Shown: positions 815 through 59,735 of the stretch, piece by piece | How positions within the stretch are numbered: the stretch's first letter is position 1 | Layout: each line of letters starts with the position of its first letter | Source of the DNA: Cordylochernes scorpioides | Lineage: Eukaryota; Arthropoda; Arachnida; Pseudoscorpiones; Chernetidae | NCBI GenBank assembly: GCA_030710605.1 | Contig: CP092886.1 | Coordinates: 52,905,862 to 52,969,861, forward strand | DNA length: 64,000 bases | Direction: 5' to 3' | Position numbers and translations under genes: made by a program | Notes under the pieces: generated by a model | Seen by the model: the letters and a program-made list of their open reading frames with translations, nothing else | Told to the model about the DNA's origin: nothing | Databases searched by the model: none

Positions 815-1420
815 TTAATTGCTATTTATGAGTTCTGTATATGATTCTGGAATTTCAATGTGTCCTATTGATGCTTGCGTGTTTTAATGATAAAAAAAGC
901 CTCTAAATACAGTCTTTTCTGTTTGTTGTTTATGTTGGTGTAGAAAGTTTTTGGGTTATTTAGGTTGAAGGTGTGACCTGTATTTTGTGTGTGTTGGTAT
1001 AAAAGGGATTTTTTATCTTTTTTTATTTATGGATCTGGTGTGCTCGTTTGTCCTGTCTATTACTTGTCTGCTGGTTTCGCCTATGTACATACTATTGCAT
1101 TGGTTGCATTTTATTGAGTATATTGCTTGACTGTTGTATATTGGTGAGTTATGGCTATTGTTTTTTGTTATGGGATTTCTGACTATTGCGCCTATGTTGG
1201 GTGTGTTTTCGTAATATGTTTTTATACCGTATTTTCTAATTTCTGGGGCTATTTTTACGCTATTAGGGGAGTACGGTATGATGTAAATAGATTTATATGT
1301 TTGACTATTGCTTGTGTTATTGGGGTTATAAAAATGCCTTAATATGAAATTTTTTGGGTATCCAGCTGTGGCTTTGCGTTGCTCCTGTAGAAGGGCCACC
1401 ATACCCGAAAGCTTGAGCAT
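815..1420 (-). pseudogene. Penelope-like GIY-YIG endonuclease fragment, frameshifted
   Basis: C-terminal part of a Penelope-like element polyprotein. In these elements this domain nicks target DNA for reverse transcription. Visible features: an IYSIKC block, a CNQCNSMYIGETSR block with the two cysteines and the YIG, then an R...EH arrangement, matching GIY-YIG architecture of this clade. The continuous frame runs from 1420 to about 1013 and ends early at NKKR. The remainder, up to a stop at 815-817, continues in another frame after a length change in an A/T run near 1,015. There is no reverse transcriptase part. The right-arm copy reads through this place but is broken elsewhere, so each copy carries its own lesion. 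Non-functional as it stands. Confidence 0.8.
1381..1418 (+). ncRNA. Hammerhead-like motif, family B
   Basis: Same organisation as 615-652 but on the plus strand. Stem I is GCUC/GAGC, stem II is GGG/CCC with loop CCACCAUA, then GAAAGCUU. It overlaps the 5' end of the antisense Penelope-like frame. Confidence 0.5.
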
Positions 1421-3330: not shown

Positions 3331-3628
3331 AAATGAATTGTTTGTATATATATTTTATTATATTAATTTAATATTTAATTTCAATTATTCTTCAGCAAGA
3401 TATCCGTATTAATCTTTGAGGAAATGATTATTTTACAGAATATTTTTCAATCAACTTATTTTGCCGTCAGGTCAACAAGGAGGTGAACAATGGTCATCAC
3501 TTTAAAATTATCTCTTTTGTAAAATTCTTGTAGGAGAAAATTGAAGAACAAATCGTATTACGCCATCCACTGCACCTATGGCAAGTTTTTGTCACAAGGC
3601 GGGCAAGGCCACGCGCTGGGGCAGCAGG

Positions 3629-3636
3629 TATATAGG
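3629..3636 (+). promoter_or_regulatory. TATA box of G/W-rich gene copy 1
   Basis: TATATAGG lies 39 bp before the ATG and is conserved, with about 50 bp around it, in all four copies. A start site about 30 bp downstream would leave a leader of only roughly 10 nt. Confidence 0.6.
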
Positions 3637-3667
3637 CCGGACTGGACCGTGGGCCGACACAACCACG

Positions 3668-3980
3668 ATGAGGCCTCTGGTGGTAAGTCACCGTTGAACC
3701 AGTGTTCGCTCACAGCTGATTTCTTGTTGTCTAGATCGTTGCTCTGTTTGCTCTCGTTGCCGCCGCCGCTGCCGTTCCCTGGGGCGGTTATGGCTTGGGC
3801 GGATACGGCGGATGGGGAGGTTGGGGATGGGGCGGTCACCCCGTGGGCCGTGCCGTAGCCTACGGTAGCTCCATCAAGCACCCCGGCGGCTGGGGCTGGG
3901 GCGGTCTGGGCTACGGTGGCTGGGGAGGTGCTGGCTGGGGCCGCGGCTGGGGCTGGGGCGGACATGGTGGTTGGCATTGA
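3668..3980 (+). CDS. Secreted glycine/tryptophan-rich protein, copy 1 (2 coding exons)
   Basis: Spliced CDS 3668-3682 joined to 3735-3980, 86 residues. Exon 1 encodes MRPLV. The 52-bp intron begins GTAAGT and ends CTAG. Residues 1 to about 18 form a signal peptide (MRPLVIVALFALVAAAAA), followed by VPWGGYG. The mature part is GGY/GGW/GWG repeats with one non-repetitive block (VGRAVAYGSSIKHPGG) and a GHGGWH end. Secretion and a structural role in cuticle are inferences from composition. A YGGW-type antimicrobial or neuropeptide-like peptide is the main alternative. This is the first of four paralogues, and the differences seen among copies 1-3 in exon 2 are synonymous. The start is chosen because it supplies the signal peptide's N-terminus and is identical in all copies. 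Confidence 0.85.
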
Positions 3981-20673: not shown

Positions 20674-20985
20674 TCAATGCCAACCACCATGTCCGCCCCA
20701 GCCCCAGCCGCGGCCCCAGCCAGCACCTCCCCAGCCACCGTAGCCCAGACCGCCCCAGCCCCATCCGCCGGGGTGCTTGATGGAGCTACCGTAGGCTACG
20801 GCACGGCCCACGGGGTGACCGCCCCATCCCCAACCTCCCCATCCGCCGTATCCGCCCAAGCCATAGCCGCCCCAGGGAACGGCAGCGGCAGCGGCAACGA
20901 GAGCAAACAGAGCAACGATCTAGACAACAAGAAATCAGCTGGGAGCGAACACTGGTCTACGGTGACTTACCACCAGAGGCCTCAT
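20674..20985 (-). CDS. Secreted glycine/tryptophan-rich protein, copy 2
   Basis: Complement of 20,674-20,919 joined to 20,971-20,985, with a 51-bp GT-AG intron. 86 residues with the same sequence as copy 1 as far as I can read, differing by silent changes in Ala and Gly codons. A signal peptide (about 18 residues) is followed by GGY/GGW repeats, the VAYGSSIKHP block and a GHGGWH end. It lies in the right palindrome arm as the twin of copy 1. If the palindrome is an assembly product of two haplotypes, copies 1 and 2 are alleles, not paralogues. A cuticular structural role is inferred from composition only. Confidence 0.85.
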
Positions 20986-21009
20986 CGTGGTTGTGTCGGC
21001 CCACGGTCC

Positions 21010-21025
21010 AGTCCGGCCTATATAC
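21010..21025 (-). promoter_or_regulatory. TATA-box region of copy 2
   Basis: The TATATAGG element in the minus-strand promoter lies about 39 bp upstream of the ATG at 20,985, as in copy 1. Confidence 0.55.
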
Positions 21026-21141
21026 CTGCTGCCCCAGCGCGTGGCCTTGCCCGCCTCGTTACAAAAACTAGCCATAGGTGCAGTGGATGGCGTAATACGA
21101 TTTGTTCTTTAATTTTCTTCGACAAGAAATTTACAAAATAG

Positions 21142-23667: not shown

Positions 23668-23982
23668 ATTATTAAACGTTTTTAAAGAAAGAAACGCAAC
23701 CTCGGAGGCTTTATTATTTTGTCCTAAAGATTTCACAGAGGTTATAATATTGGACTTAGAACTATGAAATAATTCAAAATAAATTATATTTATATATATA
23801 TAAGAATTCAACTCACCGTTTCAAGAGTGAATTTCTTTCTAATTAGAGCTTAGTATAACCATATAATTCAGACAATATCATTCCTAAATATATTTATATC
23901 AATTGATTTATAAAATAATTTCCTGGACATAAACGATTAAACAGGTTCTGGAGATGAGTTTCTTTTCATTTTATTAAAGGAA

Positions 23983-24020
23983 TCTCAAGCTTTCGGGCAT
24001 CTTCGTCCCTATACAGGAGA
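23983..24020 (-). ncRNA. Hammerhead-like motif, family B
   Basis: Mirror of 264-301, with the UCUC/GAGA stem I variant. Confidence 0.45.
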
Positions 24021-24130
24021 ACATAAATAAACGGATAAATCGTCGCCCAATGTCGAACAGTTTAAATATAAAGGTATTTATTATATATATGAGAAAACAA
24101 TAGAAAAAAAGGGCAGGTGTTGATATTAAA

Positions 24131-24440
24131 AATAAAGAAGGCATATCCTGATCAAAGCACGTGTGCTTTTCACATGTCAGAGCGCCATCTAGTGGAAAAA
24201 AATACAATAAACGTTTATTTAACTTGCTCCATGATATTTGGCCAACCCAATTTCTGGTACAGCCTGCTCCAGGCTGACAAGCGCCAACAACGCGAAACGC
24301 GTTCGTGGATGGATTTTCTTGATTTATCAAGAAATTGGGTTGGCCAAATATCACGGAGCAAGTTAAATAAACATTTAGTTTATTTTTGCTCTACCAGATG
24401 GCGCTCTGCCATCTAAAAAGCACATGTGATTTTGGTCAGA
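24131..24440 (+). mobile_element. Hammerhead-repeat family A, complete copy
   Basis: Bounded by inverted tags (ggcatatcctgatcaaagca at 24,139-24,158 and a diverged partner at 24,419-24,446), with inverted 'gatggcgctctg' blocks inside. The centre holds the hammerhead at 24,269-24,308, then the TTCTTGATTTATCAAGAA palindrome. No coding capacity. It resembles animal retrozyme or Penelope LTR-type units. Confidence 0.65.
24269..24308 (+). ncRNA. Hammerhead ribozyme candidate, family A
   Basis: CCAGG, CUGACAA, GCG, loop CCAACAA, CGC, GAAA, CGCGUU, CGUGG. Stem I has four of five pairs, stem II is GCG/CGC, and GAAA lies 3' of stem II. A GUU cleavage triplet directly precedes the 3' strand of stem I. 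The core is CUGACAA, one base from CUGANGA (G8 to A), so activity of this copy is doubtful. Confidence 0.6.
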
Positions 24441-24519
24441 ATATGCCTTCCTTTTTTTAGTATATATATATATATTTTAAAAAAGATGCATATATTGAAT
24501 TTATAATGAATTTATTGTT

Positions 24520-24560
24520 CCAATATTTCGAGGGGCAACTCGCCTCTCTTTATCGAGGAT
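24520..24560 (-). ncRNA. Hammerhead-like motif, family C variant
   Basis: UCC, UCGAUAAAG, a GAGG...CCUC stem II, GAAA, UAUU, GGA. Same scaffold as 14,124-14,166, but stem II has an unrelated sequence that still pairs. Confidence 0.45.
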
Positions 24561-24870
24561 GTTTGTGTTTTCACTAAAGCATGCGCGCACGTGTACACCA
24601 CTCTCGTTCTACAAGGCCAATGAAAGAATTGTATCTTTGATTTAAACATTACATTCAGTATATATATACAGCTAATAATTATATACATTATTACAGATAA
24701 ATACCATTATTATTATTTTGTCTACACATTGTGCTTGAAATAGAGCTTTATATATAACAGTGTAACCGTAAATAATTGTGTGCATACATTCTAATTCTAA
24801 ATTAATGATAAAATTTTAAGGGTAATAAATGAGTAAATTAAAAGTATATACATAGTTATCTGCCGAAGAC

Positions 24871-24930
24871 AAACACAGTATAAACAGAAAAATTGATTTT
24901 CCAGAAATTTATAAAGAATTCATATCCTAA
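24871..24930 (+). pseudogene. C-terminal tail of a Penelope-like protein
   Basis: Twenty codons, KHSINRKIDFPEIYKEFIS then stop, matching the C-terminal pattern KHASINRHIEIPESYTELINSN of the remnant at 23.4 kb. Everything upstream is replaced by the inverted arm. Confidence 0.6.
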
Positions 24931-25240
24931 TTGATTGTAAATAACTATGTATATACTTTTAATTTACTCATTTATTACCCTTAAAATTTTATCATTAATT
25001 TAGAATTAATATGTATGCACACAATTATTTACGGTTACACTGTTATATATAAATCTCTATTTCAAGCACAATGTGTAGACAAAATAATAATAATGGTATT
25101 TATCTGTAATAATGTATATAATTATTAGCTGTATATATATACTGAATGTAATGTTTAAATCAAAGATACAATTCTTTCATTGGCCTTGTAGAACGAGAGT
25201 GGTGTACACGTGCGCGCATGCTTTAGTGAAAACACAAACA

Positions 25241-25281
25241 TCCTCGATAAAGAGAGGCGAGTTGCCCCTCGAAATATTGGA
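25241..25281 (+). ncRNA. Hammerhead-like motif, family C variant
   Basis: Plus-strand partner of 24,520-24,560 with the UCC/GGA stem I and GAGG/CCUC stem II. Confidence 0.45.
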
Positions 25282-25322
25282 ACAATAAATTCATTATAAA
25301 TTCAATATATGCATCTTTTTTA

Positions 25323-25357
25323 AAATATAATTTTAATTATGGATTGCTCAATCTTCA

Positions 25358-25395
<38 letters not shown>
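25323..25395. repeat. (TA)n microsatellite
   Basis: A TA run at about 25,359-25,395 directly abuts the 5' LTR of the next element. Confidence 0.7.
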
Positions 25396-25634
25396 TGTGG
25401 TGAAGAAATAATTTATTATTTAATTTAATTATTCAATGAAAATATTTAGAAACAGATTTAAATATTTACATTTTCTAAATCACATCATTTATTTTCCTAG
25501 CTTGCTTGCTCAATATTCTCTAGCTGTAGATAGTTGGGTTAATATTTTAATATTAGTCGACTAGTCGAGCTGACGTCATCAATAAATACGCTTACATCTT
25601 AAGATATACAAATACTTGATTTCTACGCTGCAAC
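25396..25634 (+). repeat. 5' LTR
   Basis: 239 bp, from TGTGG to GCAAC. TATA-like 'ataaata' near 25,581. Confidence 0.8.
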
Positions 25635-25707
25635 TGGTGGAGAAGCTGGACCGATACTCATTAAGAAATAAAAGAAAAATGATTCTGTTGAACCAGAAGG
25701 AACTTCT

Positions 25708-26580
25708 ATGAATGTAAAGACTGAGGCGAGTACCCAGGTAAACAACTACCTTGTTCAACATTTGCCAAGGAACCCTTCCATTTTCTTCGGGGAGGATGGT
25801 GAAGGTCTCCAAAAATGGTTAAAAGGGTATGCACGTGTGGCAAGGTACAACCATTGGGATGAAACACTTTGTCTTACTAAAGTTTATTTTTATCTGTTTG
25901 GAACTGCTCTAAAATGGTTTGAGAACAACGAAGAAAGTATACAGACTTGAAAAGAATTCACATCTCAATTAGAGAATGTGTTCGAAAAAAAAAAAGAAAA
26001 TTCAAAATTGCAAGCAGAGAAGAAACTTAAAACACGGGCGCAGTTAAAAGGTGAGAGTACCGAATTTTACATCCAGGATGTCCTGAACTTGTGCAAAGAA
26101 TTTGATCCTCAAATGAGCGAGAAGATAAAATCTCCCACCTCATGAAGGGGATAGCTGAGGAGCTTTATCAAGCAATCCTACCGAGGGATGTACAGAGCAC
26201 CGAGCAATTCATTACAGAAGGTCGTCGTGTCGAAGCGCTCCGTCGTAGGCGAGCTACCTCAACCAGGTACGAGGGCCTACCAAATGTAGCCTCTCTGTGT
26301 GACCAGGATGACGGAGAAGATCTGTCATAGCTGATCAGAAAAATTGTCCGCGAGGAGATACAGCAAGCATTGGACTCACCTCAAGAGGAGCCTAAAATCG
26401 CTGCCATTGAAGATGTAGTGAGGGAGGAGATTGTAAAGACCTTGGCACCTAGATCAAAACCTACAATAAGTCCCCCTCAAGCACTCAGTCCGGTATCAAA
26501 TATGTTTTTACTGTGGACACCTAGGTCACGTCGTCCGCTATTGCCGCGACAGAAAGAGACACAACGAGGAAAGAAGAAAT
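25708..26580 (+). pseudogene. Ty3/gypsy gag, degraded
   Basis: Retrotransposon capsid/nucleocapsid remnant. First frame 25,708-25,950: LVQHLPRNPSIFFGEDGEGL and the KWLKGYARVARYNHWDE region typical of arthropod gypsy capsids, ending at a stop where Trp is expected. The same frame is then open again from 25,951 (KEFTSQLENVFE...). A frameshift lies near 26,125, and the next frame (26,142-26,330) covers LMKGIAEELYQAILP. A further stop is at 26,328-26,330. Near 26,501 a zinc knuckle C-X2-C-X4-H-X4-C (CFYCGHLGHVVRYC) reads in a different frame from its surroundings. Multiple lesions mean no intact product. Confidence 0.8.
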
Positions 26581-27018
26581 GAATATTTCCAAAGAAAGCA
26601 AGACGCAATGGTATTCTACAACTCTCGAGCCGAATCTCAGGAGCCCAACGACGAATCATCGAGGGAAACTTTCAGTGGCTACCGAAGCCCTACCCCATAT
26701 CCCGGTCGAAACAGACAACATTTCTCACATGCTAAAAGACCTATCTGTACGCTCCGCCATGAAATAGATGATAGATCATATTGGAGATGAAGCCACAAAG
26801 TTAGAAAATCCTCCCTTGCCGACCACAGTAGAAATAAGAAAAAACTACATTGACGTAAATATATACCTGCAAGCTCTCATGAAGAAGATATCTCAACTGA
26901 AAGAAGACATCCACCGCAGACACATGAAAATTTTCCTGGCCCTAGTACTAGTTATTGAGACTGACGACGTAAGTCTCCTGCTGAGCATCGGTTCGATGCT
27001 CTTTATAGGAGGAGGCTA

Positions 27019-27260
27019 TGTGGCAAAAAAATAATTTATTATTTAATTCAGTTTAATTATTCAATGAAAATATTTGAAAACAGATTTAAAATTTCACATT
27101 TTCTAAATCATCATTTAGTTGTCTAGCTTGCTTGCTCGATATTCTCTAGCTGTAGATAGTTGGGTTAATTTTTTAATATTAGTCGACTAGTCGTGCTGAC
27201 GTCATCTATAAATACCCTTACATCTTAAGATATACAAATACCTGATTTCTACGCTACAAT
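27019..27260 (+). repeat. 3' LTR
   Basis: 242 bp, TGTGG to ACAAT. A few per cent differences by eye from the 5' LTR, so the insertion is not recent. Confidence 0.8.
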
Positions 27261-27659
27261 ACATACAGGTATATATAGAATTCATTCAATAGAAAGTGTG
27301 TTACCTTCTAACAATATCTGATCAGACCAAATCACAATCCTTTATAGAGTGACGTAAAATGAGGTATTATGCTCTGGAAGAGTGCTGGGTCCATTATCTG
27401 TTGGGAATTGGAAGAAGAAAGAAAGAACCGCACCATATTCTATTAAATGGGAAGATGCTTCACTATCTCTAGTAAAGAACTTAAATGGAAGGGAAACAAA
27501 ATCAGCAGCTATATACCATGATATACGGGTCTTTTTAGTCAGGTTTGTGTGCTCAAGACTCTCTATGATAACAAAATGAAAGTTCGTGACCATGATCCAG
27601 ATTCTATTCCCCCATTGGGCACTTTTTTCTGAAAATATCATAAAATATTCTAACACCTA
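27261..27659. other. Unassigned interval
   Basis: Weak frames on both strands (27,342-27,656) resemble nothing I recognise and are read in both directions. Not called. Confidence 0.4.
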
Positions 27660-28370
27660 AAGTGAAGGCAAATAACAAAGCGGAAACCTACCCACTGAGT
27701 GCAAAAGCCGCGCAGCTTTCTACTTCTGTAAGAATGTGGTGCACTGACAGTAAGGACAGTCGCTAACTACCTACATTAATTATCGTGTCATATAACACAT
27801 GTATTCTGAGGGAAGTGAAAAGGTCAATTATATGCTTCTACTTGTTCTTCAGAGAACATAAATTCAATTCTTATACAATTTCAATGTTTTTAATATCTTC
27901 TTTACTCCATAATTAATAGAAAATGCTTATTTTTATTTAAGAAATACATTGCCAAAATAATTATTAAAAAAAATTATTGATGTATAACAATTGATTTATA
28001 TTGTTTTTCCTTTGTTGCATTTGATATGAGAGTGCACTTCTGTTTCATCCTAGTGTTGTCAAAACCTATAGATATTTCTAACATTTTCTGATAACGGCAT
28101 CAGCTTTCAAAACAATTCCACTCATTTCCCTTTCTAAAGAATTTATATTTTGTATTTGAGACGATATGTGTTCTTGTTACTCAGCCTAGCATCTGATGGT
28201 GTTGTTTATTGACCATCTAGTTCCCAGTTGTTTTTTCTCTAATAACCAATATATATCCTTGATATCTCTTGTTTTCTATTGTTTTGATTTGTTATAGAAC
28301 TTGTCACCTTATTTATAAATGCATATATTTTGTTGGTAAGAAGTGTATAAGCGAATGAAAATAAGTTTAA
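27660..28370. repeat. Downstream part of the duplicated gene unit (copy 3)
   Basis: Homologous to 4,470-5,220. The reading frame seen there is broken here, supporting a non-coding nature. Confidence 0.6.
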
Positions 28371-28501
28371 AAGAGACAGATGATTAATAAAATACATATA
28401 TTTTAATTTTTCCTTCAATCTTACAAATTTAAAGTAATTTAAATTTCTACAATCCAATTTTGATTTTGAATTTTGATGTGACACTTTACAGGATTCTTTT
28501 G
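28371..28501 (-). other. Predicted 3' UTR exon of copy 3
   Basis: TTCCAG acceptor immediately upstream of 28,501 on minus, donor at 29,282. The intron (28,502-29,282) is about 780 bp, compared with about 330 bp in copy 1, because it contains a tRNA gene and a Helitron-like insertion. Confidence 0.5.
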
Positions 28502-28755
28502 CTGGAACACACAAAAAATATTTTAATATAATTAATAAAATTTTGTATAGATTTCAAATTTGATCATTATTTTTTGCTTATACAAAACATGAATCTTTTA
28601 AATGATATATATTTCGGACAGAGATATTTTTCAAGTAAGTTTAGATATTCTTATAACATATTCTAGATACAAGTATCAAAGTCATCAACACTCAATTCTG
28701 TCATCGTTTGCTTTTGTGAATGGAATAAATACCCAAATATGGCCATTTATTATAA

Positions 28756-28826
28756 GCATCGGTGGTTCAGTGGTAGAATGCTCGCCTGCCATGCGGGCGG
28801 CCCGGGTTAGATTCCCGGCCGATGCA
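28756..28826 (+). tRNA. tRNA-Gly (anticodon GCC)
   Basis: 71 nt with perfect acceptor pairing GCATCGG/CCGATGC, a D-arm GGTTCAGTGGTAGAAT, anticodon loop CTGCCAT and T-stem CCGGG/CCCGG. A long T run follows as pol III terminator. The T-loop reads TTAGATT instead of TTCGATT, changing C56 that normally contacts the D-loop and lies in box B, so activity may be reduced. It sits antisense inside intron 2 of gene copy 3. Confidence 0.8.
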
Positions 28827-28870
28827 TTTTTTTTTTTTTACAATTTTTAAAACTCATTTATATTATCCGT

Positions 28871-29234
28871 ATATATATAAAAGCCAGTGTATGTATGTAT
28901 GTATGTTTGTCGGCTATACACGTCCACAATACGTAACTAATCTGACTGAAATTTAACAGTATATAGAGTAGAATATGTTTTAACTTATAGTGAAAATTTC
29001 AGTTCTCTATCCCGAATATTCGTCGAGTTATTTGAAAATTTGCCCTTTCGCTCGCGAGCAGCGCCTCTAGCGGTGAAGATGGGAGGTAATATCAGCTGAC
29101 CTATGTACATGTAAAGTTTGGAGCGGGACACAAGAGTGACATCCATGCCGCCAATTTATAATTGTAACAAATAGTATTTGAATAAAAACATTCAATCGGA
29201 TAGAACACGGGCGTTGCCCGGGTCATTCGGCTAG
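28871..29234 (+). mobile_element. Helitron/Helentron-like non-autonomous element
   Basis: Starts TATATATAAAAGCCAGTGTA with a TATG repeat. Ends with the GC palindrome CGGGCGTTGCCCGGG and CATTCGGCTAG. The same architecture occurs at 50,791-51,706 and 63,181-63,529. Non-coding. Family assignment is by pattern only. Confidence 0.55.
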
Positions 29235-29296
29235 CATATATATATATAGCATTCGTAAAAAGAAAGCAATGGGATTATTTACCTATTGTAGGCTGA

Positions 29297-29609
29297 TCAA
29301 TGCCAACCACCATGTCCGCCCCAGCCCCAGCCGCGGCCCCAGCCAGCACCTCCCCAGCCACCGTAGCCCAGACCGCCCCAGCCCCAGCCGCCGGGGTGCT
29401 TGATAGAGCTACCGTAGGCTACGGCACGGCCCACGGGGTGACCGCCCCATCCCCAACCTCCCCATCCGCCGTATCCGCCCAAGCCATAGCCGCCCCAGGG
29501 AACGGCAGCGGCAGCAGCAACGAGAGCAAACAGAGCAACGATCTAGACAACAAGGAATTAGCTGGGAGCGAACACTGGTTCAACGGTGACTTACCACCAG
29601 AGGCCTCAT
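29297..29609 (-). CDS. Secreted glycine/tryptophan-rich protein, copy 3
   Basis: Complement of 29,297-29,542 joined to 29,595-29,609, with a 52-bp intron (GTAAGT...CTAG). 86 residues, apparently the same protein as copies 1 and 2. The substitutions I can see, in a Ser codon of GSSIK and an Ala codon of the signal peptide, are silent. The signal peptide, GGY/GGW repeats and C-terminal GHGGWH are intact. It lies 8.6 kb from copy 2 in the same orientation, so the family grew by tandem segmental duplication. Confidence 0.85.
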
Positions 29610-29629
29610 CGTGGTTGTGTCGGCCCACG

Positions 29630-29650
29630 GTCCAGTCCGGCCTATATACC
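29630..29650 (-). promoter_or_regulatory. TATA-box region of copy 3
   Basis: The TATATAGG element (minus strand) lies about 39 bp upstream of the ATG at 29,609, conserved with its surroundings. Confidence 0.55.
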
Positions 29651-29911
29651 TGCTGCCCCAGCGCGTGGCCTTGCCCGCCTCGTGACAAAAACTAGCCATA
29701 GGTGCAGTGGATGGCGCAATACGATTTGTTCTTTTATTTTATCCTACAAGAATTTGACAAAAGGGATTATTTTGAAGTGATGGCCATTGTACACAATCTT
29801 TTGACCGCACACAATAAAATAAGTAGATTGAAAATATTCCGTAAAATATTTTCCCTGAAATATAAATACGCATATCATTGCTGAAATATAATTTCAATTA
29901 TAAACAAAGTA

Positions 29912-30130
29912 GGCATATCCTGACCAGGAGCATTTTTTGGTCGCAGTAGAACAGCCTGCTCCACGCTGACGAGCGCGAAACGCGTTCGTGGATGGCTTTT
30001 TTTGATTTATCAAGAAATTGGGTTGGCCAAAAATCAGGGAACAGGCTAAATCAATGAATAGTTGATTTCTGTTTTACCAGATGGCGCTCTGCCTTCTGAA
30101 AAACACATGTGCTCCTGGTCAGGATATGCC
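29912..30130 (+). mobile_element. Hammerhead-repeat family A, 219-bp unit
   Basis: Perfect 21-bp terminal inverted repeats (29,912-29,932 and 30,110-30,130, starting GGCATATCCTGACC) enclose a hammerhead candidate, a TTGATTTATCAA palindrome and the 'gatggcgctctgcc' block. No protein. Confidence 0.75.
29961..29991 (+). ncRNA. Hammerhead ribozyme candidate, family A, minimal stem II
   Basis: CCACG, CUGACGA, GCGC, GAAA, CGCGUU, CGUGG. The core matches CUGANGA exactly and stem I (CCACG/CGUGG) is perfect. Stem II is collapsed to GCGC because the loop seen at 24,284-24,290 is missing, so a monomer is unlikely to fold. A dimer could. Confidence 0.6.
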
Positions 30131-30245
30131 TACTTTGTTTTTAATATCAACACCTGACCCACTTATTATTTATTTTTTTCTATTGTTTTTTCAATTGCAA
30201 TTATATATTTTCAATAAACATAAATTATATATAATCAAATATTAT

Positions 30246-30452
30246 CTCTACAGACCTTACTGCAATGATATGAGTTAATGAATGAGAGGGCTTGGCTCAT
30301 CAGTAGTGAACCCTCTCAGCGGTTTCGCCAAATTAATCTCTAGACCGCTCTACTATTGTATTGGACTGGTTTTGTTATACTCTGCATTTTCTATGGAAGG
30401 CAGCTTAGGGGTGTTTAGTGAACTATGGACATAAGCTTATAGGTCTGTAGAG
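30246..30452. mobile_element. MITE-like element with CTCTACAGACCT termini
   Basis: 12-bp perfect inverted ends at 30,246-30,257 and 30,441-30,452. The interior is shared with 1,873-2,075. Confidence 0.75.
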
Positions 30453-33559: not shown

Positions 33560-34125
33560 TAAATTAGTCTTTATAATGATGATACTTAATCGTTTAAAAC
33601 TTTTTTCTTTTTTTTTTTTTTCTTCTTTTGTTAGACCATGCTTTTTGGTGCATTTCATGAAATATTGTACAAATAAAACCCCACTCATCCTGACCATTAT
33701 TGTCTACACTCTGGAGAATCTGTGTAAGACCAATGGGGTCTTGATAAAAGCTTGTGTGTGTGTATTTATTGGTTTTGCAAATTCATTGTTACGAGGTGTA
33801 TTTAAACTATAGCATTAGATCGTCGCAATTGTAACGCGGAGGTATTCAAATAAATATCAAACCTAAAAATGTAAAGATTTACTATAAATACGAGTGTGTG
33901 TGTTTCTCTACACATAAAAAACGATTTCTCTTCTTACCGCGGTTGTAAATAATGGAAGGACGTTGCTCATCAGTGGTGAACCTTCCCATTGGAGTTGTTA
34001 ATTTAATCCACCAAACTACAAATTGTAATACTGTATTGGATGATTCTGGTTAACATTCCAAACTTAAAATTCCATTCCTCATTGTCGCACAAAGTTTGGA
34101 ATGTTATCAATATATAGTACTTTAT
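33560..34125. other. Unassigned, with a degenerate MITE-like copy
   Basis: A T-rich run at 33,601-33,630 and a CUGAUGAG-containing MITE-like relic at about 33,950-34,060. No gene. Confidence 0.5.
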
Positions 34126-34275
34126 AAAAAATGGCATATCCTGACCAGGAGCACATGTGCTTTACAGAAGGCAGAGCGCCATCTGGTGGAACAGAAATCA
34201 ACTAAACATTGATTTAGCCTGTTCCCTGATATTTGGCCAACCCAATTTCTTGATAAATCAAGAAAAGCCATCCAG
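34126..34275 (-). mobile_element. Hammerhead-repeat family A, truncated before ribozyme
   Basis: Has the tag 'ggcatatcctgaccagga', the 'gcgccatctggtgg' block and the palindromic 18-mer region. The sequence leaves the family at about 34,272, directly before the hammerhead would begin. Confidence 0.65.
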
Positions 34276-34488
34276 ATGGCGGTAATTTTTTTTATATTGA
34301 TTTCAACACCTGATCTTTTTATCTTTTATTTTTTTATTTCGTTTTTTAATATAGTACTTTATGATTCTATTTTATTTGTACTCGTATAGATGGGGCGTTA
34401 TTGCTTTTAATTAATCCTGCAACTGTGTTGTTACAAATTGAAACTGATTTTGACGCGTATTATTATTTATGAAATGAAACAATTCTCT

Positions 34489-37542: not shown

Positions 37543-37870
37543 TCAATGCCAACCACCATGTCCGCCCGAGCCCCAGCCGCGGCCCCAGCCAGCACCTCCC
37601 CAGCCAGCTCCTCCCCAGCCACCGTAGCCCAGACCGCCCCAGCCCCAGCCGCCGGGGTGCTTGATGGAGCTACCGTAGGCTACGGCACGGCCCACGGGGT
37701 GACCGCCCCATCCCCAACCTCCCCATCCGCCGTATCCGCCCAAGCCATAGCCGCCCCAGGGAACGGCAGCGGCAGCGGCAACGAGAGCAAACAGAGCAAC
37801 GATCTAGACAACAAGAAATCAGCTGGGAGTGAACACTGGTCCAACGGTGACTTACCACCAGAGGCCTCAT
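37543..37870 (-). CDS. Secreted glycine/tryptophan-rich protein, copy 4 (long form)
   Basis: Complement of 37,543-37,803 joined to 37,856-37,870. 91 residues, five more than the other copies: one extra GWGGA repeat in the C-terminal half. There is also a Trp to Ser change in the GWGSGG segment. Signal peptide, intron (52 bp) and promoter are as in the other copies. It lies 8.25 kb from copy 3 in tandem. The in-frame 15-bp repeat gain suggests slippage within the repeat array and shows that length is tolerated. Confidence 0.85.
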
Positions 37871-37894
37871 CGTGGTTGTGTCGGCCCACGGTCC

Positions 37895-37912
37895 AGTCCG
37901 GCCTATATACCT
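37895..37912 (-). promoter_or_regulatory. TATA-box region of copy 4
   Basis: TATATAGG on minus about 39 bp upstream of the ATG at 37,870. Confidence 0.55.
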
Positions 37913-38262
37913 GCTGCCCCAGCGCGTGGCCTTGCCCGCCTTGTGACAAAAACTAGCCATAGGTGCAGTGGATTGCGCAATACGAATGGTTCTTAATTTT
38001 CTCCTACAATAATTTACGAAAGAGATAATTTCAAAGTGATGGCCATTGTTCACCTCATTGTTGACCTAACGGAAAAATAAGTTCAATCAGAGTGTATGCT
38101 GTATGATCACACTCTTCTTAGAGATGAATACGCATATCATTTCATATATAGTTGCACACACAATTAAATATATATACACAATAAAATTATATTTATTAAT
38201 GAAAAAGGCAGGTTTTCACGCAGTCACGCTACATAAAGCCAATGAAACAAACATATTCAAAA

Positions 38263-39797: not shown

Positions 39798-40442
39798 TTG
39801 ACATCTAATCTCTCTAAAACATTTGAGAATATAATAAAAAATAAATTAAGTAACTATTATTTAGAAAATAATCTAATGAGCTCAAGGCAGCACGGCTTTA
39901 TGAAATCTAGATCAACTATTACAGGAATGGAAAAAATTATAGAAACTATATTGAAACAAAAACAAAAAGAATTGATTTCCTTGATAGCTATAGATATAGC
40001 TGGTGCATTCGACAATGCATGGTGGCCTGCGATTATAAAACGAATGGATAATGATAATACGGATTTAATACGGATCATAAAATCTTATTTGAATAATGAA
40101 AGGGAGGTGAAATTTACATACGAATCAGAAACTTTTTATAAGAAACTAACTAAAGGATGTCCACAGGGTGGACCTTTATCACCACTTCTATGGAATATTT
40201 TGCTAAATGATTTGTTGATAAATTTTGAATCAATGAATGCAGAAATTATATGTTATGCAGACGACGTTACAATAATTTGCTGGAATAAGACTATCGAAGG
40301 ACTAAAAACCGCAAGTGAATACATCTTAAATTATGTGATCCAATGGTGTAATAGAAATAAATTAACGATCAGTACAGAGAAAACTAATTTGCTATACCTG
40401 CATAACAGAGAAAAATACCTATTAAGGTTATTAACAATATAA
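39798..40442 (+). pseudogene. LINE reverse transcriptase domain
   Basis: 214-residue open segment. SSRQHGFMKSRST corresponds to motif 2-3, AIDIAGAFDNAWWPAI to motif A with its catalytic Asp, KGCPQGGPLSPLLWNILLND to motif B, and CYADDVTII to the YADD active site. It is interrupted shortly after the thumb begins. The active-site residues are intact, but flanking lesions remove the full protein. Confidence 0.88.
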
Positions 40443-43614: not shown

Positions 43615-43900
43615 CAAAAAAGCATATCTTGACCATATATCAGCACATGAGCTTTTAAGAAGGCAGAGCGCCATCTAGTGAAACAGAAATCAACTAAACG
43701 TTGATTTAGCCCGTTCCTTGATATTTGGCAGTTCCCATTTTCTTGATAAATATGGAAAAGCCAATCACGAACGCGTTTAAGGCTGTTGGCCCTCGTCAGC
43801 GTGGTGCAGGCTGTACTTCTCCGACCAAAAATATTTTGGTCCCAGAGGCTTATTGAGAAATCAAGATATGGGTATTTAAGGACAAACTTGCGTAAATACG
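43615..43900 (-). mobile_element. Hammerhead-repeat family A, minus-strand copy
   Basis: Same block order as at 59.4-59.7 kb: tail tag, 'gcgccatctagtg', palindromic region, hammerhead, 'ggaccaaaatattttt', then 'tgggtatttaagg'. Confidence 0.65.
43765..43804 (-). ncRNA. Hammerhead ribozyme relic, family A, covarying stem II
   Basis: Minus strand: CCACG, CUGACGA, GGGC, loop CAACA, GCCU, UAAA, CGCGUU, CGUGA. Stem II (GGGC/GCCU) differs from GCG/CGC of the 24.3-kb copy, yet pairs. The essential GAAA is UAAA (G12 changed), so probably inactive. Confidence 0.55.
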
Positions 43901-44999
43901 CTGAACACGTGAAAAAACAATAAAAAATAAACTAAATTAAAAAAATTATATATATATATATATATACAGATAAGGTTCAGATAAATGTTACACATTGATG
44001 AAATATATTTGGACACACATATGTGTGTAGTGTGGCATGTGAGGAAGTTATCAAATTTTCACATATTGCTCATAGTGGAAGTAAAGCAGTTATTTATGAA
44101 AAATAAAGAGTAACTACAAATAAAATAAGCTTATTTATGTAAATCTATATTGCCTCAATGTTAATGATGGAATTACACTCATGGATAAAATTTAAGGAAG
44201 TATAAATTCTTCAATATTACCGATCGTCTGTTTTTTTTTTTTTTTTAACTGGGCTATCTCGTGTCTCTTTAATAATAAAGGGCATTGTGTATCAAATACC
44301 TTTCAGAGTTATACGAATCCCGATATACATGATAAAAGGTAAAAGTTTCTTAAGTTTTGTTCATGGGTGTTAGCGCTACTTCTTTCAATCATTTAAAAGG
44401 AATATAGACAATTGGTGAAATGAAGTTAGATTTGAGAAGTTTCGACTCACCAGTGGTAAGACATCGAAGAGATTCCAATACGGATAAAACAAGACTTCCC
44501 ACATCATCTGCTTCTACAGTTTGCTAATGTATAAGTGTAACATGTGTGAAAGATATAGCGATGAATAATTCCATCATTAATTCACAGTATTGTATTCCGT
44601 TTTACTAATTTTCTCAATTATTATTTAGATCAAGGTTTCCATATCTCTCTTTCAATGTGAGCCATAGACAAATATAGCTTTAACAGGGGGGATCAATCAA
44701 ATCTATCTCACAATATAGAATTCTAAATATAATTGCTTCTCGTGAAATTTCGGAGAGATGAGAAAAAAAAGTGAACTTATTAAAGACGAATAATCTTTAT
44801 AATCTAAAGGAAGGAACTTAGCCTGTATAATAGAAAACTAGGTTCAGTAGGTATGCAGTGTATAAAGTTGGAATAAAATGATATACATACATAAAACACA
44901 CGTAGCAATGTCAATTTTCGCCCATGCTAATCTAACATTGACCTAACTCAACTTGAAATATGAATCGTAAAGATAGAGGCTGCCTGGCCGGCATTCATA
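43901..44999. other. A+T-rich interval, no gene seen
   Basis: Contains a TA run (43,948-43,967) and a T run at 44,230-44,247. No gene. Confidence 0.5.
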
Positions 45000-50677: not shown

Positions 50678-50742
50678 GCATCGGTGGTAGAATGCTCGCC
50701 TGCCACGCGGGCTGCCACGGGGTTCGAATCCCGGCCGATGCA
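50678..50742 (+). pseudogene. tRNA-Gly pseudogene
   Basis: Same acceptor (GCATCGG/CCGATGC) and flanking sequence as 28,756-28,826. The D-arm has lost 8 nt (TTCAGTGG missing) and the variable region is altered. The T-loop here is the normal TTCGAAT. Followed by a T run. Confidence 0.8.
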
Positions 50743-58439: not shown

Positions 58440-59334
58440 CAAAAAAAGATTCTCTGTTGATTTTGGAATTAGATATATATATAATTATTACTTGCTGATG
58501 CTGGTTATTTTGTGGATACATAAGTATGTTTTTGGTATTGTTATTGCAGTCGTAGTAAAAATGATTTTAACTTTGAAGCACAAATTTCTTTAATTGTGCT
58601 AATGAAGTATATAACAGATAATTTGATAAAGTATTACCTGTTTTAATGCGAAAAGAATAAAGGAAACACAAGGCTAATATACATATGTACAAAAAGATTT
58701 GAGCTGGCCAACGGGAAACAACAACAATGGGTTTATATACTCCAAAGCCGCGACATCTGGCGGTCGATTTTACAGGGTAATTTGATCTGGGAATTATAAT
58801 TTTAAAATTAAATACAAAAATTTTATATAACATATATATAATGTGAAAATACATAGAATATTATTTTTATGAAATAGAGCTTCCTATATCCCTTTTAAAA
58901 TATTACCTATTGAATATATCAAAACAATGCATTTTGGTGACGATCTCCGTGCAGAGAGAACAGAATTAGATAAAGAAATATGCCCTAACACACTTGTTGA
59001 ACAAATTCAGCCAAAACAGACGATCACTATACCATGGTTTCACGCCATGGCCCTCATCAGTACTATAATAAGCTGCCGTGTACTGACATAACCTGAACCC
59101 ATTGTATACTGATGTTGACTTTCGTTCGAATACTCCACAAAGATCGTGGAGCAACATACTCTACTATCTAAATATCTTCATAGTAGATGAGTAAAAAATG
59201 ATTTGTTTAATGAATTCATCAAAAAAGGAGTCTCTTTTAACATGTATATTTAGAGTATATTTTAAATATATGAATAAACAGTATTAAAATATTTATTGTT
59301 ATTAAAATACTCCAATTATTTATAGTAATAATAA
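58438..59334. other. A+T-rich interval, no gene seen
   Basis: Weak frames only. 59,030-59,050 contains a CCATGGTTTCACGCCATGG palindrome of no known role. Confidence 0.45.
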
Positions 59335-59735
59335 AAAGCACATGTGCTCGTGGTCAGGAGATGCCTTCTTTATTTTTAATATCAACACCTGACCCACTTA
59401 TCTTTTATTTTTTTCTATTCTTTTTTCATGTATTAAGCGTCTTTACGCAAATTTGGCCTTAAATACCCATTTCTTGATTTCTCAAGAAGCCATTGGGACC
59501 AAAAATCTTTTTGGTCGCAGTAATTACAGCCTACTCCACGCTGACGAGAGCCAACAAACGCGTTCGTGGATGGCTTTTCTTGATTTATCAAGAAATTGGG
59601 TTGGCCAAATATCACCGAGCAAGCTAAAAAAAAAAAGTTTTGTTTATTTTTTCTCCACTAGATGGCGCTCTGCCATCTAAAAAGCACATGTGCTCGTGGT
59701 CAGGAGATGCCTTCGTTATTTTTAATATATATATC
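59335..59735 (+). mobile_element. Hammerhead-repeat family A, more than one head-to-tail unit
   Basis: The tag 'gcacatgtgctcgtggtcag' occurs at about 59,338 and again 346 bp later at 59,684, in the same orientation. Between them are the complete family blocks including the hammerhead relic and the TTCTTGATTTATCAAGAA palindrome. One unit plus a terminal repeat is the arrangement expected from a retrozyme-like intermediate. Confidence 0.7.
59536..59569 (+). ncRNA. Hammerhead ribozyme relic, family A
   Basis: CCACG, CUGACGA, then a shortened stem II region and ACGCGUU, CGUGG. Stem I is perfect and the core CUGACGA exact, but the GAAA has been lost with part of stem II. Confidence 0.5.

Follow-up and report, generated by a model that had tools for sequence, protein, structure and literature searches.

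Fixed, unequal insertion ends of a hammerhead-bearing repeat in a pseudoscorpion genome point to mobilization by Penelope-like machinery

Repeats carrying hammerhead ribozymes occur in large numbers in the genome of the pseudoscorpion Cordylochernes scorpioides, and a stretch of 64,000 nucleotides from it (assembly GCA_030710605.1, contig CP092886.1, positions 52,905,862 to 52,969,861; hereafter the window) harbours several copies of one such repeat, Family A. Here, we present evidence that makes it very probable that Family A is a retrozyme of the metazoan type, inserted into the chromosomes by the machinery of Penelope-like elements (PLEs) through two-ended priming at two sites in its RNA, termed A and B. 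The copies in the window are members of large retrozyme families. The mechanistic information resides in the fixed, asymmetric ends of two-ended insertions, a feature that is absent from a preliminary description of the window.

Ends were placed on the coordinates of one repeat unit (U), in which U1 is the predicted cleavage site. Two classes of 3'-type ends lie about 50 nt apart: class A (U150-164) falls within the loop of a conserved hairpin and class B (U196-214) some 30-35 nt past that hairpin. With composites shorter than 80 nt and segments shorter than 28 nt left out, the loci together gave 131 3'-type ends in 85 composites, 62 of them in A and 44 in B (106 together), and 48 composites were arranged head-to-head while a single one was tail-to-tail. 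A near-systematic set was assembled from the first eight places matching a hammerhead pattern and 40 of the 100 listed places matching a pattern in the body of the repeat, taken in order to C1:10.73 Mb; places inside already sampled loci were skipped, C1:2446601 and C1:10386280 were passed over, and L009-L023, chosen for their neighbouring hits, are excluded from its figures. This set held 52 composites, of which 29 were head-to-head, none tail-to-tail and 21 one-armed, and the one-armed copies ended in A (15), in B (2) or elsewhere (4). Every head-to-head case in the set with both ends classed combined one A with one B (17/17), an outcome with a chance of about 5e-6 by a rough estimate that takes the ends as independent and A:B as 62:44. 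Over all loci the rule held in 31 of 33 cases. Both exceptions, L010 (A/A) and L015 (B/B), lie inside larger palindromes and look like later duplications, since the inverted duplication extends into their host flanks (identity 1.00 and 0.74). In a second family, V, inspection by eye found seven of eight insertions obeying the rule and one exception, L105 (A/A), a count that is not systematic as loci L095-L101 were picked for neighbouring hits. The association of one A with one B suggests a coupling between the two starts of an insertion.

The PLEs of this genome have ends of the same kind. GIY-YIG domains are abundant, with 146 matches among the 150 scored of 17,015 first-look candidates, and five PLE frames were tested: RVT_1 and GIY-YIG were both present in L050, L052 and L054, GIY-YIG alone in L049 and neither in L051. 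Hammerheads at PLE loci consist of CTGACGA, a long stem II, GAAA and CGTC or CGTT; scans of L049 and L051 for other hammerheads detected none. When head-to-head PLE pairs bearing a hammerhead in each half were compared by eye (L050, L053, L054, L115/116, L117/118, L121/122, L123/124 and L125/126), a 35-bp tail was seen on exactly one side in all eight, and direct repeats of 7-11 bp were seen at five of them; L119/L120, where no hammerhead was found, and L052, with one end only, were excluded from this count. In L115 the untailed end is reached about 17 nt earlier than usual. In the predicted structure a hairpin, CTGGCC/GGCCAG, would hold the untailed end in its loop, with the tailed end lying past it, which resembles the arrangement in the retrozyme. 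The retrozyme insertions have the same signature, namely two fixed, adjacent 3' starts, a head-to-head arrangement and one tailed end. PLE membership is defined by a reverse transcriptase with GIY-YIG, and the retrozyme unit has no long reading frame. Since the retrozyme shows PLE insertion features but lacks coding capacity, insertion of its RNA by a PLE enzyme is the economical reading, and the unit would be at most a non-autonomous PLE partner. Two further PLE loci deserve mention. L049 contains a 3.3-kb inverted repeat of 98.6% identity, with GIY-YIG near the start of the tested frame and no reverse transcriptase match in that frame, and in L123 the tailed end of the PLE lies, by eye, close to a retrozyme copy, such that one element appears to have been inserted beside or into the other.

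Target sites show the same resemblance. The flanks of 33 retrozyme insertions were 87% AT as compared to 66% for the loci. Direct repeats had a mean of 11.0 against 7.3 for re-dealt flanks, and repeats 7 bp or longer, made up of three or more letters, were found at 9 of 31 insertions against 8.7% in the control, although direct repeats are hard to delimit in TA runs. AT-rich sites with short direct repeats, the PLE type of target, thus characterize the retrozyme insertions as well. For a lizard PLE protein, the account of integration in PMC11167929 describes reverse transcription from two adjacent internal sites and the cutting and extension of both strands with a preference for AT-rich DNA, the genomic tail being the sequence between the two start sites. 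In the proposed cycle, the retrozyme hammerhead would cut multimeric transcripts into monomers, which would become closed circles. A protein supplied by a PLE would then cut an AT-rich target on both strands and prime reverse transcription from both DNA ends, beginning at sites A and B of the RNA. The two complementary DNAs would traverse the ribozyme, sometimes for several rounds, before being joined centrally, and the product would be a head-to-head insertion in which only one end is tailed, the flanks carry a short direct repeat and the tandem units are nearly identical. The same account calls PLE integration relatively little known and reports for the in vitro reaction a start site that is the same for either strand (PMC11167929); the coupling of start sites is therefore a new and testable point. 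The one-A-one-B rule constrains the mode of PLE integration, and end counts turn the question of the mobilizer into a genomic test for which tens of thousands of natural insertions exist.

The head-to-head form could also have another origin. It has been suggested for bdelloid PLEs, given the palindromes at their inverted junction (PMC3846280, in its treatment of these junctions), that such copies arise by self-priming or fold-back, and PLE machinery acting in this way instead of by two-ended priming would agree with the finding that the two arms belonged to one subfamily in all 25 composites for which both were called (11 of 36 were uncalled). Fold-back does not predict, however, that one outer end is A and the other B, and in L007, an uncalled composite, the arms seem by eye to be of different subfamilies, though this composite has an atypical left end and could consist of two nested insertions. 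We regard this origin as unlikely, while leaving it some weight. A more elaborate version of two-ended priming by PLE machinery is about as doubtful: the ACGCGU loop of the ribozyme might be a dimerization site, by which two RNAs or circles would pair as a double hammerhead and be copied together, one per target end. If so, PLE integration would be a coupled two-ended reaction in which each target strand receives one of the start sites. It would constitute a separate mode of target-primed reverse transcription, resembling the use of a dimeric genome by retroviruses.

The retrozyme families are large, and their ribozymes are often complete. In the assembly searched (2.62 Gb, 24 contigs), the hammerhead pattern of the window type, allowing G or A at position 8, had 22,703 exact matches and its reversed form none; a pattern requiring CTGANGA, GAAA and CGCGT, without C at 10.2, had 19,080, mostly from a family reading CTGATGA-GGGC-loop-GCCC; and a body pattern outside the ribozyme had 17,932, the three sets overlapping in part. 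Two large genomic families carry the full type I core in order together with stems I and II. Among loci picked through the body pattern, and hence independently of the ribozyme, the core was intact in 13 of 35 fuzzy rows, or 13 of 18 when 17 rows that read as chance are removed, and four of the 13 are neighbouring V-family copies. Intact cores are therefore common genome-wide, though none is found in the window.

The 19,080 full-core matches and a compensated stem II pair run counter to the outcome that the preliminary description had set against itself, a genome with neither covariation nor an intact core. At that pair, 10.2/11.2, one large family has C-G and the other G-C, and among 100 listed full-core matches inspection by eye also found one T-A, one A-T, T-G and G-T wobbles, and two A-C mismatches. 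The 14 hammerhead pairs were 98.6% paired over 36 distinct rows, as compared to at most 92.5% in 500 shuffles and 29-48% for slid partners, statistics that are inflated by kinship among the rows. Changes on both sides were hardly above the shuffle mean (4 of 14 pairs against 3.1). For the 639 copies with C at 10.2 and a mutated 10.3, no compensating partner at 10.3/11.3 was seen by eye among 100 matches listed. Covarying stems had been claimed from the start, and the claim stands for the compensated pair between families and the overall pairing, but two-sided changes near the shuffle level, with none seen in decaying copies, add little to it. The covariation is real but mostly marks differences between a few subfamilies, which the changes separate, so that independent events are few. 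Several places in C2:49820726-50509658, some in tandem at a spacing of about 335 bp, have a stem II of GCAC/GCGC with an A-C mismatch, which suggests that a subfamily whose stem II is weakened is spreading. A scan of IMG/VR for the hammerhead motif gave no match.

The unit is short and without coding potential. Complete U-type units (n = 17) measured 345-352 bp and the V unit of L096 measured 338 bp; their GC content was 0.40-0.41, and the longest stop-to-stop stretch on the circle was 49-96 amino acids, that is, no long reading frame. These values lie within the range of metazoan retrozymes (non-coding units of about 170-400 nt, GC below 50%, a type I hammerhead). Tandem copies were observed in both the U and V families. 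In the three U arrays with at least two complete units, the units differed among themselves at 0 (L011), 0 (L013) and 1 (L009) positions, and the nearest other array was 13 positions away for L013 and 2 for L011; L009 and L010 were 1-2 positions apart, both copies lying inside one palindrome. The V units in L096 differed mutually at 0 or 1 positions. For L013 at least, the identity of its units and their distance of 13 positions from the nearest other array mean that all units on both arms come from one monomer, as expected of a template that is circular or newly amplified. From such near-identity the arrays look young.

Stem III of the type I hammerhead comprises little beyond one A-U pair and the palindrome CGCG (ACGCGU). 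Unconstrained RNAalifold on the 36 distinct rows recovered both parts of stem I, stem II, several hairpins and the proposed start hairpin (GGTCAGG/CCTGACC, with the V counterpart GATAAGG/CCTTATC), and 10 of the 53 pairs were changed on both sides, four of those in the hammerhead. The start hairpin was 97.6% paired, where shuffles did not exceed 94.0%, and had one two-sided pair against a shuffle mean of 1.0; for hairpins 1 and 3 of the unit the shuffle test was uninformative. The predicted circles of U1, U2 and V (here names of units) are alike, being rods that carry the hammerhead at one end, and in the model are far more stable than mononucleotide shuffles.

Whether the ribozyme takes any part in this spread may be questioned, as it could be an inactive relic within a repeat that spreads by other means. 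All four copies in the window are damaged, the cleavage site is not clearly marked by inner ends, and the ribozyme of the lizard PLE, as described for the in vitro system, needed protein and was dispensable for insertion (PMC11167929). Against this, the full core and paired stems are kept in both large families and the near-identical arrays look young, and we hold the relic explanation to be improbable. Long interspersed nuclear elements (LINEs) are capable of producing inverted 5' parts and target-site duplications, and a LINE-like reverse transcriptase frame is recognizable by eye in the window (39798-40442, plus strand), so a LINE-type enzyme could have mobilized retrozymes, with inverted copies made by twin priming. 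The outer ends, however, are both fixed and of 3' type, no poly-A was seen at the retrozyme ends listed, and the one-tail rule is shared with the PLEs of the same genome, which leaves a LINE a very improbable mobilizer. Hardly credible at all are DNA transposons resembling miniature inverted-repeat transposable elements, bounded by long terminal inverted repeats and carrying the hammerhead as a passenger, which would account for inverted arms, small size and direct repeats at AT-rich sites but are disfavoured by the A/B rule, the ends differing by a fixed 50 nt or so instead of being mirror images, and by the numerous one-armed copies (21/52), the variable inner junctions and the tandem near-identical units.

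Insertion of retrozyme RNA by PLE machinery at A and B nevertheless has to face several observations that weigh against it. The A and B classes were fixed after inspection of the histogram, the retrozyme loci were sampled from one chromosome and the window, and 12 of the 29 near-systematic head-to-head composites have an end outside both classes. Two of 31 insertions lacked a direct repeat. Within the 26 loci of the PLE search, the retrozyme unit matched only at L041, through a neighbouring copy, and over 30 nt of L043, and no PLE with its start hairpin or tail sequence was found among them; the PLE tail of 35 bp and the retrozyme tail of about 50 nt are unlike in sequence. Array identity is less telling for L011, which is 2 positions from another array. 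The fold of the monomer in the energy model is not the active one, since core bases pair with the CGCGUU strand; nor do the dimers that the model predicts take the form of a double hammerhead. The predicted gain on dimerization (5.8-7.1 kcal/mol for U1, U2 and V) was rejected as support for dimers, being unspecific: damaged window copies gain as much (5.0-7.7). A run-off pile at U1 was considered as a sign of cleavage in vivo and rejected as well, for most of the copies in that pile, among the blastn matches listed, continue upstream; in the extended tally, from which segments below about 40 nt or 85% identity were dropped, 5 of 113 inner 5' ends lay near the cleavage site (U348-U4) where about 2 were expected, which is no clear mark.

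The same tally placed 42 of the 113 inner ends around the ribozyme (U331-U30), as compared to 16 expected, and many insertions read through the cleavage site. From these two features together, the template may often be closed or uncut at the site, or copying may tend to stop near the ribozyme.

Within the window, the exact pattern (CTGANRA, a gap of 4-20 nt, then AAACGCGTTCGTGG) matched at 24274, 29966 and 59541, against 0.00 matches expected over 100 shuffles, and a looser search added a fourth site at 43765-43779 on the minus strand. The preliminary description had listed these same four sites, each with at least one weakness, and both points were confirmed, as every copy departs from a complete type I hammerhead (a CUGANGA/GAAA/NUH core in order, with stems I and II). 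The copy at 24269-24308 (plus) has CTGACAA, G8 being changed to A, with one mismatch in stem I and GCG/CGC as stem II; that at 29961-29991 (plus) retains the CTGACGA and GAAA core while stem II has collapsed, one strand and the loop being gone; that at about 43765-43804 (minus) has stem II GGGC/GCCT and TAAA in place of GAAA; and that at 59536-59569 (plus) has a deletion removing stem II and GAAA. Two corrections are needed: the copy at 43765 reads on the minus strand, and the span 24131-30130 contains two separate insertions with unrelated sequence between them. Rfam found no hammerhead in the whole window at the gathering score, nor in 23900-30300 of it at E<=10. The genome scan with the type I model, which the preliminary description had looked to for confirmation, did not provide it: no hammerhead appeared among the 74 scored of 285,298 first-look candidates, and the control was likewise silent. 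That Rfam gave no match is probably due to the tiny stem III.

The insertions in the window were defined by aligning segments to the unit, with an inverted-repeat search for the arms of those at 24089 and 29897. A head-to-head copy truncated by the window edge occupies 1-195 (1-33 minus, 33-195 plus; right end of type B). The insertion at 24089-24463 (plus) is head-to-head, with an inverted left arm at 24089-24255 (end B) and a right arm at 24255-24463 (end A). That at 29897-30193 (plus), flanked by the repeat TTTCAATT, has a short inverted left arm at 29897-29932 (end A) and a right arm at 29932-30193 (end B); the proposed reverse-transcription-start hairpin, GGTCAGG...CCTGACC, lies here at 30117-30159 (plus; alignment columns 181-187/217-223), and its loop holds the point matching end A. 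A head-to-head insertion without a ribozyme at 34123-34350 (plus; A end left, B end right) has a clear 14-bp direct repeat, ATATAGTACTTTAT, on both flanks. The copies at 43622-43931 (minus) and 59332-59728 (plus, end A) are one-armed.

Other features surround these copies. A large inverted repeat at about 24500-25320, next to the first retrozyme copy, carries by eye a CCAATATTTCGAGG...TTTATCGAGG motif in both arms and resembles sequence flanking copies in L014 and L023, and may represent a further remnant of head-to-head type. The frame at 1013-1420 (minus; YSIKCNQCNSMYIGETSRQ) resembles by eye a GIY-YIG fragment of a PLE and had no Pfam match at E<=0.001. Four closely similar frames (MPTTMSAPAPAAAPAST...), recognized by eye at 3576-3977, 20677-21141, 29300-29695 and 37546-37956, are perhaps the antisense of a small four-copy gene rich in Gly and Trp. 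A gag-like region with stops lies between two similar stretches at about 25400-27260 (by eye) and looks like a decayed long terminal repeat element. The Rfam scan of the window reported transfer RNA matches at 28756-28826 (64 bits) and 50678-50742 (29.8 bits); the latter looks like a truncated form of the former.

The likeness to PLEs and animal retrozymes that the preliminary description had drawn holds. Lunse, Weinberg and Breaker reportedly described, in 2017, minimal dimeric hammerheads of PLEs in which a very short stem III is suited to action as a dimer; unlike these, the hammerheads here belong to short non-coding units and have a longer stem I with an internal loop. In the account of Cervera and de la Pena (2020; PMC7229834), the axolotl motif HHR_Amex1 is likewise of type I with a one-pair stem III and a palindromic tetraloop, metazoan retrozymes without long terminal repeats occur as tandem copies, with repeats of 330 and 350 bp and highly self-paired predicted circles, and copy numbers are very high, with 126,247 motifs in axolotl. 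The many head-to-head insertions, two fixed ends and one-sided tail set the present family apart, the word "inverted" being absent from the main text of that paper. With PLEs of the Penelope/Poseidon type carrying GIY-YIG, as characterized in PMC11167929 and PMC3846280, the retrozyme shares the head-to-head arrangement, the tail on one end, two adjacent internal starts and AT-rich targets; those of bdelloids are described as mostly head-to-head, with inverted pseudo-long terminal repeats, an optional tail on one of these and repeats of 8-10 bp (PMC3846280). As in PLEs, its hammerhead lies shortly upstream of the start hairpin. It differs from them in lacking coding capacity and in the sequences of tail and hairpin, and its stem III palindrome is ACGCGU where the PLEs of this genome have ACGU (ACGT in DNA). 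The 2020 paper, where it turns to mobilization, names PLEs as a strong candidate (PMC7229834), and a 2024 review, in its section on the subject, still gives LINEs or PLEs as possible mobilizers (PMC11722881). The ends of the retrozyme insertions match the published PLE signature and support the proposal that the mobility of metazoan retrozymes is driven by PLEs.

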